Assembly (NCBI RefSeq): GCF_008329965.1
Contig: NZ_CP036150.1
Span: forward strand, 2,294,001 to 2,358,000
DNA: 64,000 nucleotides
Reading direction: 5' to 3'
From: Oceanispirochaeta crateris
GTDB taxonomy: Bacteria; Spirochaetota; Spirochaetia; DSM-2461
Shown: positions 57,210 through 62,358 of the stretch, piece after piece
How positions within the stretch are numbered: the stretch's first letter is position 1
How the letters are laid out: each line of letters starts with the position of its first letter
Notes under the pieces: model-generated
The model's input: only the letters and a program-made list of their open reading frames with translations
Told to the model about the DNA's origin: nothing
Database searches by the model: none
Position numbers and translations under genes: made by a program

Positions 57210-57875
57210 ATGAAAGTTCAGTATTTAATCCTGTTGATGCCCCTGTTTTTCATGATGTCATGCCTGGAAGAAAAGCAAAAAGTAAGTCCACCACAGAGCG
57301 TAACCGGAAAAATCATCGGAATGGAAGGAGATGTGAAACTGGAAGGGAAAATTGTCGAAACAGGAGATTCGGTTCCAGATGGTTCGGTCATAACCACATC
57401 TTTGGACGGATACTGTGAAATTCAGTTTCTGGGAAGCAATATCATAAAAATCTATGAAGATTCCATCCTTAGAATCTCCTTTACAGATTCAACCATATCC
57501 CTGGACAGAGGTGCAGCCGCGGCAGTCCTGCGAAATATAGGGACATTGATCCAGAATATGGACGACGTTTTCACCATCCAATCCGGTACGGTTGTGGCAG
57601 GAATCAGAGGCACATCCTTCTACATGCAAAGAGAAGATGCCGATACATCATATTTCTGTCTATGTAACGGAGAAATAGACCTCTCAGATTCAAATGGTAA
57701 ATTCTCACAACCCATGAAAAACATCCACCATGGCGCCGTGAGAATCTCTGAAAAAGATAATCAGATTGAAGTGAGCCGTGCCCCCATGCTCTATCATACG
57801 GATTCAGACATGGAAGCATTGGCCTCCCGGATCGGTGAAAAAATGGATTGGACCCATGTGGAGAGCTCACATTGA
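57210..57875 (+). CDS. FecR-domain lipoprotein
   Basis: 221 residues. Lipobox MMSC places the lipid on C18. A FecR domain follows: GKIIGMEGDVKLEGKI, SVITTSLDGYCEIQFL and VVAGIRGTSFYM. AAGGAGG precedes ATG 57210. It belongs to the same exported family as the protein at 29252. Converges on pepF. Role is unknown. Confidence 0.8.
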   Translation: MKVQYLILLMPLFFMMSCLEEKQKVSPPQSVTGKIIGMEGDVKLEGKIVETGDSVPDGSVITTSLDGYCEIQFLGSNIIKIYEDSILRISFTDSTISLDRGAAAAVLRNIGTLIQNMDDVFTIQSGTVVAGIRGTSFYMQREDADTSYFCLCNGEIDLSDSNGKFSQPMKNIHHGAVRISEKDNQIEVSRAPMLYHTDSDMEALASRIGEKMDWTHVESSH

Positions 57876-57882
57876 AGGCAGC

Positions 57883-59679
57883 TTAAAGGAGCTCCTTCTC
57901 AAGCTGTTCTACTAGGGCGGCAAATCGTCCCAAAGCCTTATTAACTGCCCCGGGGAGACTCATATCAACCCCGGCGGCTTTCAATGAATCCAGAGGGAAC
58001 CGGCTGCCTCCGGACTTGAGAAAGTTCATATAGGACTCTCTCTCGGGCGCTCCACCCTCCAGAACCATTTCTGAAAGAGCCATGGCCGCAGACAGTCCTG
58101 TGGCATATTTATACACATAAAAGGCATTGTAAAAATGAGGAATCCGCAGACCCTCCAAATCGGCCTTTTCATCCAGAACCACATCAGGACCAAAATACTT
58201 CACTAGAAGTTTTTGATACTCCTGACGCAGGCTATCCACAGTCAGAGGCTGACCGGACTCTACCATAGCATGACAAATCATTTCATACTCGGCAAACATG
58301 GTCTGCCTGTAAATAGTAGCCAAAGTGTCATCGATTTGACGCCCCAGCAGATAAAGTGTCATCTCTTTGGAGCTGGAATGATCCATCAGATAACGTCCCA
58401 AGAGCTGTTCGTTGAAGGTTGAAGCCACTTCTGCTTCAAAAATAGTATAATTGTAGTTCTGAAAGGGATTATTTCTCACAGAATACCAGGAGTGCATGGA
58501 ATGCCCTCCCTCATGAGCCAGGGTAAAAACATCCCGAATATCATCTTCTTTGAAATTCATGAGGATGTAAGGCTCTCCCTTGTAGGACCCTGCCGAGAAT
58601 GCCCCGGATCTCTTGCCCTTGTTCTCATACCGGTCTACCCAGCCGCCGCTTAGTCCATTTTTGAGGACTGTTCCGTACTCTTCACCCAGGGGTGATAGAG
58701 CCTTGAGAACAACATCCACAGCCTCATCAAAGGTATGACGCACAGACATATCAGGGATAAGGGACACTTTTGTATCGTAAAGCTGTAACTCCTCTAAGCC
58801 CAGAACCTTTTTCCTAAGGGAGTAATACCGATGAAGAGGAGCCAAATTGGCCGACACGGAAGAAATGAGATTATCGTAAACATCCACGGGAACATTATCA
58901 GGAAACAGACTGGCTTCACGGGCAGAGGAAAACCCTCTAACTCTGGATGTATAAACATCTCGGAGGACACTCCCGCCATAGAGCTCACAAAGGGTATTCT
59001 TATGTCCTTCAAAAACATCGAAAAATTGATGAAACGCCTTCTTTCGAACCTCTCTGTCTGGATTTAAAAGGAAGACCCCGAAGGAAGAATTGGTCAGTTC
59101 TTTTTCTTCTCCCTCCACGAGGATTGTTCCAAAATTCATATCCGCATTGGTCAGGGCTGAAAATGCCTTCCTGGCGGTTTGAGCAGATTCGGCCTGCATG
59201 GCCAGGAGGTTTTCTTCCTTTTCTGACAGAATGTGGGGCTTGTACCTGATGATTCTCTCCAATGAGATACGGAACTCTTCCAGGACAGGCTCTTTCATGT
59301 AAGAGTCCAGTTTTTCCGCCGGTAGAGTTTGAATTTCAGGCTTGAGGTAACTGGCAGCGGCACTGCTTTTCGTAGCCACAGCCATATAGCGTGAAAAACG
59401 CCCCATGGATTCACTATCAGCCACATCTTCTTCTTTGCGAAGCATGGCATAATAACCTAATCGTTCTTCTAAAATTTCAAGTCGGTTAAAAAAATCAAGG
59501 CAGGTCTTAAGCTGTTGCGCTGATTCTCCCAACGTTCCTTTGAATGATGTAATTTCAGGAATCAGAGCCTCCAATTCCAGAAGAGCTTTTTCCCATTCCT
59601 CCGGATTTTTAAAGAGGGCAGTCAAATCCCATTTATCCCCTGATGGTACGTCTTTCCTTTCCTTGAGAACCTTGCTCAT
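57883..59679 (-). CDS. pepF: Oligoendopeptidase F
   Basis: 598 residues, M3B zinc peptidase. Catalytic LAHEGGHSMHSW (HExxH) and the distal Glu in YTIFEAEVASTFNEQ. Cleaves short peptides in the cytoplasm. Its start overlaps the rdgB stop by four bases. Confidence 0.95.
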   Translation of the reverse strand: MSKVLKERKDVPSGDKWDLTALFKNPEEWEKALLELEALIPEITSFKGTLGESAQQLKTCLDFFNRLEILEERLGYYAMLRKEEDVADSESMGRFSRYMAVATKSSAAASYLKPEIQTLPAEKLDSYMKEPVLEEFRISLERIIRYKPHILSEKEENLLAMQAESAQTARKAFSALTNADMNFGTILVEGEEKELTNSSFGVFLLNPDREVRKKAFHQFFDVFEGHKNTLCELYGGSVLRDVYTSRVRGFSSAREASLFPDNVPVDVYDNLISSVSANLAPLHRYYSLRKKVLGLEELQLYDTKVSLIPDMSVRHTFDEAVDVVLKALSPLGEEYGTVLKNGLSGGWVDRYENKGKRSGAFSAGSYKGEPYILMNFKEDDIRDVFTLAHEGGHSMHSWYSVRNNPFQNYNYTIFEAEVASTFNEQLLGRYLMDHSSSKEMTLYLLGRQIDDTLATIYRQTMFAEYEMICHAMVESGQPLTVDSLRQEYQKLLVKYFGPDVVLDEKADLEGLRIPHFYNAFYVYKYATGLSAAMALSEMVLEGGAPERESYMNFLKSGGSRFPLDSLKAAGVDMSLPGAVNKALGRFAALVEQLEKELL

Positions 59680-60290
59680 ACGAGAACCTCCAGTAGTGAT
59701 TTCATGATTTTTCCGGCCTTTCCCCTATGGGAGACCCGGTTTTTTTCTTCCTCCGACAATTCTGCCGCTGTTTTCCCCGTCTGGGCATCCACAAAAACGG
59801 GATCGTACCCGAACCCGCCTCCACCAAAGGGAGTGCTTGCAATCCGTCCGGCAAAAGACTCCTGAACCGAATAGACCCTATAGGGAGCTAGAATCAGAAC
59901 CATGGCGCAAACAAAAAACGCCTCCCGGTCGGTCACTCCTTGCAAATTTTTGAGCAAGAGAAGATTTCTATCTCCATCGGAGAGAAGAGGCCCGCCTTCG
60001 GAGGAACCATATCGGGCGGAATAGATTCCGGGAGCACCCTTCAGGGCTTGGACACAAAGTCCAGAATCATCGGCGAGAACAGGCCTCCCTGCAAGCTTAT
60101 ATAGGGTTTCGGCCTTGAGGAGAGCGTTCTCCATAAAGGTGCTTCCTGTTTCATCACAATCAAATTCAATCCCCAGATCGGATGGAATGAGGATACTATG
60201 GCCGGATAAAATCTGTTCCAGCTCTTTTTTCTTATGCATATTGCCAGTGGCGAGTACTATTTCCATAATCATAGAAGATAATGCATTCAC
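59676..60290 (-). CDS. rdgB: Non-canonical purine NTP pyrophosphatase (RdgB/HAM1)
   Basis: Up to 204 residues; ATG 60266 (MEIVLATGNMHKKKELEQIL) is the better start, giving 196. Motifs GSTFMENALLKA, LADDSGLCVQALKGAPGIYS and GFGYDPVF are the family's. Hydrolyses XTP and dITP to keep them out of DNA. Co-translated with pepF. Confidence 0.95.
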   Translation of the reverse strand: MNALSSMIMEIVLATGNMHKKKELEQILSGHSILIPSDLGIEFDCDETGSTFMENALLKAETLYKLAGRPVLADDSGLCVQALKGAPGIYSARYGSSEGGPLLSDGDRNLLLLKNLQGVTDREAFFVCAMVLILAPYRVYSVQESFAGRIASTPFGGGGFGYDPVFVDAQTGKTAAELSEEEKNRVSHRGKAGKIMKSLLEVLV

Positions 60291-60328: not shown

Positions 60329-61234
60329 TCAATCGGGAGGGAAAGCCCGGCAGTCTCGCGATTCCTCGAGATCCTTGAGATAAGACCTCAAATAGAAGAG
60401 CCCTGAATCCACGGAGCCCTTAGGCAGATGGAGGAGAAATGCTATATTCTCATTACTGGGAACGAGGGGGATGGACAAGAGCTGTTCATCCAGCTTTTTA
60501 AGTCTCCTCCGGTATAAATTGCAGCGTTTTTCAAGCCCGGGAATCAAATGCGGATCTGCAATGGATGCTTTTTTTCTCTCAGTCAGGTTCAAACGGAAAT
60601 AGTTTTCATTTCTCTTTCGACTCAGGAGCTCTTTCCGCTCATATTTCTTTCTAAGGCACTCCTGCAGGAATTTTCTGAAGAAAAGAGCCTCTTCTGCTGA
60701 AGGTCCGAGAAAGGGGAAAGCCGTCAAAAAATCATCTTCCTCCACAAAGGAAATATTTTTCAGAACAAACAGCAGCAGCCTTTGCCGCAGGGCTTCCTTC
60801 CTGTAAGGGGTCATACCAGAACTTTCAATAATGGAGACCATTTTGTCCAACAGACAGTATTTTCGTGGGATACATTCGCATCGGCGATTGTATTCATACT
60901 CTATGATCGACTCTCTTACATAGACCCAGTCATCATCCAGCCCCTTCTGGTTCTGCCTATAGAAGGATCGTAAATACCAGGACAGGACCTTATTCAGGTA
61001 ACAGATAAATGAGAGTCCCCTGTAATTGAAATTCATAAGAACTCCATGCATCCGTCCCATAAACCCGAGGAGAAAATCACTCCAATCTTCTTCATTCAGT
61101 GATTTCTTGTACCCTGGAAAAGAATATATATACATGTTTAATTCGTCATATAGAGCTCTGTGGAAGAATTCCATATCTTTATCATTGACAGTGGCCTGAT
61201 ACACCAGAACCTGATGGGTTAGAAAATCGACCAT
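60329..61234 (-). CDS. Unknown protein, possible divergent sigma factor
   Basis: 301 residues with no signal or membrane segment. Residues 68-93 (NFNYRGLSFICYLNKVLSWY and onward) resemble sigma-70 region 2 (F..rg.F..WL..i.rn...d..R). Residues 264-287 (IAFLLHLPKGSVDSGLFYLR) resemble region 4 (ia..l.ip.GTVksRl.RaR). The middle is charged and helical. Promoter-melting residues cannot be confirmed, and the linker is long, so I call it a candidate only. GGAGG sits seven bases before ATG 61234. Confidence 0.55.
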   Translation of the reverse strand: MVDFLTHQVLVYQATVNDKDMEFFHRALYDELNMYIYSFPGYKKSLNEEDWSDFLLGFMGRMHGVLMNFNYRGLSFICYLNKVLSWYLRSFYRQNQKGLDDDWVYVRESIIEYEYNRRCECIPRKYCLLDKMVSIIESSGMTPYRKEALRQRLLLFVLKNISFVEEDDFLTAFPFLGPSAEEALFFRKFLQECLRKKYERKELLSRKRNENYFRLNLTERKKASIADPHLIPGLEKRCNLYRRRLKKLDEQLLSIPLVPSNENIAFLLHLPKGSVDSGLFYLRSYLKDLEESRDCRAFPPD

Positions 61235-61278: not shown

Positions 61279-61308
61279 AAAAAAAGGGGAAATCATGGTG
61301 ATTTCCCC
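61279..61308 (-). terminator. Terminator of trpS
   Basis: GGGGAAATCA (61286-61295) pairs perfectly with TGATTTCCCC (61299-61308) around a 3-base loop. On the minus strand seven T follow the stem. It separates trpS from the downstream sigma-like gene. Confidence 0.92.
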
Positions 61309-61344: not shown

Positions 61345-62358
61345 TCAGTGATCAAACCCCATGGCTCGTCGTAATGTACTGATCTTGGCTGCCGCCAGAT
61401 CTCTGGCTCTTTGCGCTCCTTCGTCCAGAATCTTGTCGATATAAGACGTATCATCCATTAAGGCAACATAGCGCTCCCTCATGGGAGCAATCGTATGATT
61501 AAGGACCCTGAAGAGTTCAGCTTTGGCCTCTCCCCATCCCATTCCACCGGCCCTGTAACGGTCGGCCAGAACAGCTTGCTCTTCCTGGGATGCAAAGAGT
61601 TGATACAAAGTGAAGACATTGCATGTGTCGGGGTCTTTCGGTTCTTCAACGGTCTGAGAATTGGTAACAATTTTGTTACAGAGTTTTTTAAGCTGCTTCT
61701 CGGTAATAAAAAGGGGAATCGTATTATCATAACTCTTACTCATTTTACGGCCATCCGACCCCACAACGACCTGTGTATTCTCGGAAACAACCGCCTCAGG
61801 AAGAGTGAGGAGTTCCTGTTTATAATTTCTATTCACGGCCTGGGCTATATCCACAGCCATCTCAATATGTTGAACCTGATCCTTTCCCACAGGAACATAA
61901 TTGGTATCAAAAAGCAAAATATCTGCGGCCATAAGCACTGGATAGGTATACAGCCCCATGTTGATATTATGATCTTCAGGCTTATCCTTCTCCCTGTTCT
62001 GATCCACCTGGGCCTTGTAGGCATGTGCTCTATTCATCAATCCCTTGGAGGTAAAGGCCATGATCATCGTAGTCAGTTCAAAGGTTTCTGGAACATCGGA
62101 CTGTCTGTAGATCAGGGTTTTTTGAGGATCCAGTCCGCAAGCCAGCCAGCAGGCGGCAATCTCATAGGTATATTCCTTCAGCAGACAGGGATCTTTAATA
62201 CTGTTCAAAGAGTGATAGTCCGCAATAAAATACCTAGCATCATAGCTCTTTGCTAATTCAAGTGCCGGTTTTATGGCTCCCAGGTAGTTCCCCAGATGAG
62301 GCATTCCCGTGGGTTTTATTCCTGTGAGTACAACTTTTTTGTCCATCCCCGATTCCAT
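61345..62358 (-). CDS. trpS: Tryptophanyl-tRNA synthetase
   Basis: 337 residues from ATG 62358; ATG 62346 (MDKKVVLTGIKPTG) is a likelier start with AAGGA upstream. Class I motifs are PTGMPHLGNYLGA (HIGH site) and GRKMSKSYDN (KMSKS). Full-length; a terminator follows. Confidence 0.96.
   Translation of the reverse strand: MESGMDKKVVLTGIKPTGMPHLGNYLGAIKPALELAKSYDARYFIADYHSLNSIKDPCLLKEYTYEIAACWLACGLDPQKTLIYRQSDVPETFELTTMIMAFTSKGLMNRAHAYKAQVDQNREKDKPEDHNINMGLYTYPVLMAADILLFDTNYVPVGKDQVQHIEMAVDIAQAVNRNYKQELLTLPEAVVSENTQVVVGSDGRKMSKSYDNTIPLFITEKQLKKLCNKIVTNSQTVEEPKDPDTCNVFTLYQLFASQEEQAVLADRYRAGGMGWGEAKAELFRVLNHTIAPMRERYVALMDDTSYIDKILDEGAQRARDLAAAKISTLRRAMGFDH

Follow-up and report, generated by a model that had tools for sequence, protein, structure and literature searches.

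A probable ECF-derived, non-canonical sigma-70-family protein with a C-terminal extension in spirochaetes

Introduction

The locus analysed here raises the question of whether a protein that standard family searches pass over can still belong to the sigma factors and, if so, to which kind. The window, by which we mean the whole stretch of 64,000 nucleotides that was analysed, carries near its right end a gene for which an earlier note had proposed a divergent sigma factor. We compared its product with sigma factors by sequence profiles and predicted structures, and examined its relatives and their neighbouring genes in the phylum Spirochaetota.

Identification and distribution of the gene

60329..61234, minus strand: putative divergent ECF-derived sigma-family protein, 301 aa (reading frame; 238 of 297 class genomes; HHalign to ECF sigma factors; AlphaFold2)

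A minus-strand frame of 301 codons with an ATG start was present at 60329-61234, and the sequence GGAGG, which resembles a ribosome site, lay immediately 5' of this ATG. The 301-residue protein claimed earlier, for which no strand had been given, is thus present. A search with the single protein (E<=0.01) gave matches in 49 of 61 genomes, its own included, the closest match from another genome being 69% identical; judged by this conservation, the frame is a gene and not a chance ORF. The gene was present as one copy in its own genome, where a search at E<=10 returned this single match and no second copy. The region-2-like motif (YRGLSFICYLNKVLSWYLRS, residues 71-90) and the region-4-like motif (LPKGSVDSGLFYLR, residues 270-283) that the earlier note had pointed out were located in the order claimed.

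From the 49 matching genomes 30 loci were obtained, and these, except L021, which had a stop within the matched stretch, gave a 29-row alignment (A1) whose rows had been fetched by overall similarity. With the A1 profile, 238 of 297 genomes of the class Spirochaetia matched at E<=0.001, mostly with one match each, and the family was found in 104 of the 112 genera searched in the class. This presence would be wider than expected for an accessory ECF sigma factor. Among the non-matching genomes, of which all but 39 were listed, nine belonged to family f20 (1.0–1.8 Mb), which was represented by no matching genome; our guess is that f20 is a Borrelia-like group. Across the phylum 107 of 149 genomes matched, those in the class included, and many matches outside the class extended over only a part of the profile. 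The searches covered the phylum Spirochaetota, plus phage and plasmid records beyond it. A phage origin was considered and rejected: none of 50,697 phage records searched by tblastn with the window protein matched at E<=0.01.

For the relatives outside the class, 20 regions were fetched and 19 yielded a member, 17 of them outside the class and two (L208 and L209) inside it; L207, a match of the phylum search without a recovered ORF, was excluded. A larger family alignment of 86 rows was made from 126 sequences by removing those shorter than 230 aa and near-copies. Because some of its loci had been fetched by the peptide pattern PKG[ST][VI]DSG[LI], the C-terminal conservation in the 86-row alignment is inflated; the recognition-helix counts given below were taken from A1.

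Sequence kinship to ECF sigma factors

When the window protein was compared with Pfam, the sole hit at E<=10 was FERM_F2 (E 0.1), an unrelated family whose match was taken as chance, and the sole hit in NCBIfam was a sigma model at residues 261-288 (E 0.055). Neither the window protein nor any of ten class members scanned singly reached the cut-off of a curated sigma model, as the earlier note had anticipated in writing that standard searches may miss the protein. We attribute this to a helical arm that the family has gained and to changes in its DNA-reading helix. The window genome had six matches to Pfam sigma-70 region 2, and the window protein would be a further sigma-type factor, missed by those models.

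Of the 29 A1 members, 22 were matched at E<=1 by the NCBIfam sigma70-ECF model TIGR02937, the strongest of them at 2.5e-9; Pfam Sigma70_r4_2 matched nine (best 0.0017), and Pfam Sigma70_r2 matched one (0.0048). Among the ten class members scanned singly, eight matched TIGR02937 at E<=0.05, none above the 42.9-bit cut-off, and these eight matches spanned the protein from the N-terminal region 2 to the C-terminal region 4; the other two, L010 and L002, gave no TIGR02937 match.

HMM-HMM comparison, which had been named earlier as a way to check the proposal, was carried out with HHalign and supported both regions. In comparison with 21 aligned ECF sigma factors (retained from 30 loci of related genomes after length and outlier filtering), residues 1-120 reached 79.1% (E 1.6e-5) with A1 and 89.7% (E 1.8e-6) with the 86 rows. 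Residues 226-295 reached 95.5% (E 1.5e-8) with either alignment, over 36 columns in the 86-row comparison, which indicates a region-4.2-type helix-turn-helix (HTH), short HTH motifs being less specific. Non-sigma control families, 13 in the A1 comparison and 11 in the 86-row comparison, gave 12.7% as the highest value anywhere; with the 86 rows, the best control was 0.4% for residues 1-120 and 12.7% (ClpP) for residues 226-295. Reversed segments compared with the same ECF alignment gave 0.6 and 0.8%, respectively, with the 86 rows, and no reversed alignment exceeded 4.9% in the A1 and 86-row comparisons. Because the matches to ECF sigma factors stood at 89.7 and 95.5% against low controls and reversed segments, both motifs exceed, at the level of profile comparison, a chance resemblance. 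When the family was represented by four Leptospira-like rows, however, reversing the C-terminal segment left a match of 61.8%; with 17 out-of-class rows the reversed segment reached 2.8%.

The 86-row family matched 16 sigma-70 and group 2 rows, which had been chosen with a region-2 motif, at 7.7% at most. This argues for kinship to the ECF sigma factors (89.7–95.5%), and a primary or group 2 sigma factor was rejected on the same value. The similarity of the family profile is significant and places the protein in the sigma-70 family by descent, though the window protein alone stays below the cut-offs. The Q-E pair of region 2.2 has a role in clamp binding. In the family, 78 of 86 rows had an acid at the E position of this pair (D in 42, E in 36), and at the Q position S, A or G stood in 78 of 86 rows.

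Homologues outside the class and the Leptospira protein LIC_10225

Five of the seven out-of-class homologues scanned passed the TIGR02937 cut-off of 42.9 bits, scoring 116.2, 112.9, 95.2, 63.4, and 45.0 bits, and the remaining two scored 42.7 and 20.0 bits; the best E value of these homologues to sigma70-ECF was 1e-33. A profile built from four of these seven homologues retrieved class members, the best being L020, which matched nearly end to end (E 1.4e-12); many other class members matched in part, and the window protein was absent from the best 60 rows listed. An ordinary ECF sigma factor (L162) also matched this profile (4.5e-7). Ordinary ECF sigma factors reached at most 17.0 bits with the class profile (E 3.8e-6 in a small set), and the out-of-class member L195 matched it over positions 18-279 with an E value of 1.6e-21. 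A tree of the sigma-2 region, built from 72 rows over only 78 columns and with roughly half of its internal forks left open, set the 48 family rows apart from the 21 ECF and the 3 sigma-70 rows at an SH-aLRT of 97.

L195 was 54% identical to Leptospira interrogans WP_001054050.1, which is annotated as a sigma-70 family RNA polymerase sigma factor. Table 2 of PMC12655853 gives this protein as LIC_10225, an "unclassified" ECF sigma factor of 301 aa, and that paper places a sigma-70-ECF region at 21-194 and leaves the protein out of the ECF re-classification. LIC_10225 thus equals the window protein in length, and its relative L195 matches the class profile. L195 itself differs from the class members in scoring far better as an ECF sigma factor (112.9 bits), in its neighbouring genes, and in a C-terminal HTH that lacks PKG(S/T)VDSG. 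The gene lic10225 appears in a table of a transposon-mutant fitness study (PMC5100919), an entry which suggests that it can be disrupted, and also in a table of PMC6941012. In a Leptospira record called plasmid pLiSL25 (L210, NZ_CP092665.1 40403-51284), dnaE is found close to the LIC_10225 protein, and the stretch may therefore belong to the chromosome.

Predicted structure

AlphaFold2 modelling of the window protein on A1 gave a mean pLDDT of 88.8 and a pTM of 0.55, with eleven helices and no strands; because of this pTM the arrangement of the domains is uncertain. In VIA-align the model matched region 2 of E. coli sigma-E (4lup_A) over 91 of 91 residues at 2.7 A with Z 8.7, which indicates a predicted sigma-2 fold, a Z in this range also being attainable by a common helical arrangement. 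The VIA-align list was headed by sigma-B 8x6g_H (Z 10.1, 157 residues aligned, rmsd 17.1), and sigma-E 1or7_B was third (Z 9.5, 153 residues aligned, rmsd 19.0); these high rmsd values mean that the domains were not superposed together. Unrelated helical hairpin proteins scored similarly, on residues 196-258 of the model.

In Foldseek, no PDB hit was found at E<=0.001 for either the window model or a model of L195. With the window model, the first 15 rows were not sigma factors and sigma-E stood at rank 16 (E 1.5); the first hit, a cyanophage pre-ejectosome chain (E 0.013), had a TM-score of 0.19 and was dismissed. The L195 model, made from alignment A3 (pLDDT 87.5, pTM 0.54), had nearly the same helix plan. 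For it, 12 of the first 15 Foldseek rows were sigma factors by title, with SigW at the top (probability 1.00, E 0.0093), and sigma-E topped the VIA-align list with Z 10.1. Since helical hairpins score alike and Foldseek placed a sigma factor only at rank 16 for the window model, the structural match is support for a sigma-type fold and not proof. The earlier note had held that a predicted structure with neither a sigma-2 nor a sigma-4 fold would speak against its proposal; the AlphaFold2 model contains a sigma-2-like fold. Together with the HMM-HMM matches of both regions, this fold favours the reading as a divergent sigma factor.

Domain anatomy

60932..61225, minus strand: sigma-2-like domain, residues 4-101 (HHalign 89.7%, E 1.8e-6; VIA-align to 4lup_A, Z 8.7)
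60965-61024, minus strand: first motif of the earlier note, residues 71-90, within the sigma-2-like domain
60641..60853, minus strand: probable degenerate sigma-4 (middle HTH-like domain), residues 128-198 (AlphaFold2; HHalign)
60476..60697, minus strand: predicted antiparallel coiled-coil hairpin, residues 180-253 (AlphaFold2 helices 180-224 and 228-253)
60359..60460, minus strand: C-terminal sigma-4.2-like HTH with PKG(S/T)VDSG, residues 259-292 (HHalign 95.5%, E 1.5e-8)
60386-60427, minus strand: second motif of the earlier note, residues 270-283, within the C-terminal HTH

The computations support an N-terminal sigma-2-like domain, a C-terminal region-4.2-type HTH, and a predicted folded, helical region between them. 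A region between the motifs does exist, as implied by the "long charged linker" described earlier, but it is predicted to be folded and helical and not a mere linker, with block-mean pLDDT values of 87–97 for residues 131-290 and 64–71 for residues 101-130. The predicted helices of the middle domain lie at 128-137, 143-159, 166-176, and from 180 onward, and the domain ends in an HTH-like pair; its last helix is the beginning of the first helix of the hairpin. Column counts showed a basic-basic-N pattern conserved around residues 207-209 in the hairpin, and numerous hairpin proteins were matched by VIA-align at residues 196-258.

The anatomy can be parsed as a tandem, in which the middle domain is a degenerate sigma-4 and the C-terminal HTH a second copy, or as an insertion, in which the original sigma-4 would be the C-terminal HTH and a single insert between sigma-2 and sigma-4 would comprise the middle domain and the hairpin; the choice concerns anatomy only, with the same function. 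The insertion is closest to the earlier "linker" view and agrees with TIGR02937, which aligns region 4 with the C-terminal HTH; when each was compared alone with ECF region 4, the C-terminal HTH also stood far above the middle domain, which was weak in the class rows (95.5% vs 7.6%, E 0.0046). Against it, the middle domain of 17 out-of-class members reached 58.4% with ECF region 4 (E 9.6e-5), the best control being 3.0%, and SigX, SigY, and other single-family models put region 4 on the middle domain of L195 and L202 (SigX, for example, at 21-201 of L202); the sigma-70-ECF region of LIC_10225 is listed at 21-194 (PMC12655853, section 3.3). The tandem is further favoured by residues 1-225, which matched whole ECF sigma factors better than residues 1-120 did, both in the class (94.1%, E 1.3e-7, vs 89.7%, E 1.8e-6) and with the 17 out-of-class homologues (97.6%, E 4.1e-12, vs 96.0%, E 4.8e-9); a second alignment pointed the same way. 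It is disfavoured by the four Leptospira-like rows, with which the middle domain gave 2.3% and a control 4.1%. We lean toward the tandem and hold the insertion to be the less probable parse, with a real share of the odds. Compared as a sigma-3 with the 16 sigma-70 and group 2 rows, the middle domain gave 0.5% and aligned to their last part, which lends that reading no support, and one A1 member did match Pfam Sigma70_r3 (0.013).

Altered recognition helix of the C-terminal HTH

At three recognition-helix positions that are basic in 17, 18, and 17 of the 21 ECF sigma factors, none of the 29 A1 members had a basic residue; the same positions were occupied by D (24 of 29), G (23 of 29), and Y (22 of 29). 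At the last of the four positions, 27 of 29 members kept a basic residue, and in 24 of 29 a K appeared in the turn. With three of four basic positions lost, the basic recognition helix of a canonical ECF sigma factor is lacking, and ordinary −35 recognition is doubtful. In the signature PKG(S/T)VDSG, P was kept in 26, K in 24, G in 28, S or T in 29, D in 24, S in 28, and G in 23 of the 29 members. So fixed and so little basic a signature would be odd for a base-reading helix and points to a different contact. The signature is much stricter in A1 than most of the protein, and no reading proposed here accounts for this strictness.

Genomic neighbourhood

59676..60290, minus strand: rdgB/ham1, Ham1 family (PF01725, 2.5e-56), 38 nt downstream of the sigma-like gene
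57883..59679, minus strand: pepF-like M3 oligopeptidase (PF01432, 5.9e-71), overlapping rdgB by 4 nt
61345..62358, minus strand: trpS-like tRNA synthetase, upstream neighbour (PF00579, 1e-53)
61286..61308, minus strand: terminator-like hairpin after trpS, a 10-pair stem followed by a T run

Because the terminator-like hairpin follows trpS, the sigma-like gene probably starts its own transcript. It probably forms an operon with rdgB and the pepF-like gene, the latter as the third gene. A search for a sigma-70-type promoter of the gene between 59600 and 61500 gave no minus-strand site and two plus-strand sites, a number within chance. No anti-sigma-type gene was present among the window neighbours. 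Between serS and pepF, on the opposite strand and not adjacent to the sigma-like gene, lies a gene for a 221-aa FecR-domain protein (57210-57875, plus strand; PF04773, 2e-6); section 3.3 of PMC12655853 describes a FecR-like protein as a regulator of another ECF sigma factor in Leptospira.

The neighbour counts come from profile searches of 68 named loci and of the window. In the class, 59 of the 67 loci whose sequence sufficed had rdgB directly downstream on the same strand; a DHH phosphoesterase gene lay immediately upstream at 39 of 59, both flanking genes were present at 37 of 57, and pepF lay within 2.5 kb downstream at 30 of 65. The DHH gene of the window genome is located elsewhere and not beside the sigma-like gene. 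Four loci (L081, L084, L085, and L088) were without the rdgB and DHH neighbours and shared another conserved neighbourhood, with gene clusters 22, 23, and 24 upstream and 17 downstream.

Outside the class, CHAT genes lay within two genes of five members, identified by Pfam for L195 and L204 and by similarity for L194, L202, and L205. An anti-sigma-type zf-HC2 gene adjoined L204, and a homologue of that gene adjoined L205. A gene for the helicase loader DciA adjoined L190, and similar genes adjoined L191-L193; in these four loci (family f53) a 166-aa gene on the other side was also conserved, its L190 copy being without a Pfam match. These out-of-class neighbours suggest a sigma function there and a control that may have changed between lineages.

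Discussion

We conclude, with a probability of roughly 0.7, that the gene encodes an ECF-derived member of the sigma-70 family, non-canonical in form and carrying a C-terminal extension, and that this protein would act as a sigma factor. It is probably an ECF sigma factor of sigma-2 and sigma-4 extended by a coiled-coil hairpin and a second sigma-4.2-like HTH. Relative to the earlier note, the analysis adds that the protein is ECF-like and not primary-sigma-like, that the "linker" is predicted to be folded, and that the recognition helix has lost most of its basic residues. In this reading the sigma-2 domain would dock on core RNA polymerase, and the protein would take part in initiating transcription at a particular set of promoters; the C-terminal extension, its hairpin included, may replace or modify −35 recognition, switch activity, or both. 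In the class, the gene would be co-transcribed with rdgB and serve a housekeeping rather than a niche role.

The protein might instead be a sigma-derived accessory factor, such as a transcription cofactor, a sigma-appropriation protein, or an anti-sigma-like protein, that may bind RNA polymerase or another sigma factor and no longer recognises promoters alone. A recognition helix that has lost basic residues and at the same time holds strictly to a new signature, the loss of the Q of region 2.2, and the housekeeping-like distribution would all fit such a role, but homologues from outside the class have the scores of ordinary ECF sigma factors, a Leptospira member carries a sigma-factor annotation, and the zf-HC2 gene beside L204, with its homologue beside L205, suggests a real sigma factor there; we therefore consider an accessory factor unlikely, if well short of negligible. 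That the protein is no relative of sigma factors and is a helical HTH protein converged on their pattern seems to us very improbable. It is all-helical, unrelated helical proteins align to its hairpin with similar Z, it matches no curated model by itself, and Foldseek ranks non-sigma proteins first; against this, its homologues tie it to sigma70-ECF at 1e-33 and the profile comparisons beat their controls.

A bolder and distinctly speculative extension of the ECF-derived reading would be an unnamed, phylum-wide sigma-type class with two sigma-4-like modules joined by a coiled-coil arm, the second of which dropped ordinary −35 reading in favour of a new fixed contact, either to a promoter element out of the ordinary or to a partner protein. 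Within the class Spirochaetia, such a protein would have taken on a housekeeping role linked to the cleaning of the nucleotide pool, and it might sense faulty initiating nucleotides or act against them; the link is proposed because rdgB lies downstream and the DHH phosphoesterase gene upstream in many genomes. If the protein is active as a sigma factor, it would be a conserved added layer of spirochaete transcription, give a home to the unclassified leptospiral LIC_10225, and offer a natural case of a rebuilt −35-reading module.

Comparison with known systems

That a Leptospira member is annotated as a sigma factor is already known. In the open-licence literature, we found no description of the class-wide or phylum-wide family, of its anatomy or a tandem sigma-4 ECF sigma factor, of the altered recognition helix, or of the tie to rdgB.

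In type III-E CRISPR systems, as described in PMC10028731, the inhibitor Csx30 of CASP-sigma is cleaved by a CHAT protease, and the CHAT and zf-HC2 neighbours of the out-of-class members recall this CASP-sigma/Csx30/CHAT arrangement. The NCBIfam model CAS_III-E_sigma matched one of the 29 A1 members (8.6e-5), L200 (0.0018), and L204 (0.0024), and CHAT genes stand no more than two genes away from some of the out-of-class members; however, these matches are weak, and there is no CHAT gene among the window neighbours.

With E. coli sigma-E (RpoE) and SigW, the window protein would share the predicted sigma-2 fold and a region-4.2-type HTH, but both are shorter, with one sigma-4 and, judged by the 21 ECF sigma factors, a basic recognition helix. 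The sizes of ECF sigma factors listed in Table 2 of PMC12655853 are mostly about 170–210 aa, and the canonical form consists of sigma-2 and sigma-4 only, whereas the window protein has 301 aa, a middle domain, a hairpin, and an extra HTH. ECF41, ECF42, CorE, and others are alike in having an ECF core followed by a possibly regulatory C-terminal extension (PMC8999054). The extensions described there include SnoaL-like, Cys-rich metal-binding, WD40-like, and protein-interaction domains, unlike the hairpin and HTH of the window protein. At least 26 ECF groups carry extensions, many of them unstudied (PMC8999054), and a hairpin with an HTH may occur among them. The window protein is accordingly filed as an ECF derivative and not as a canonical ECF sigma factor.
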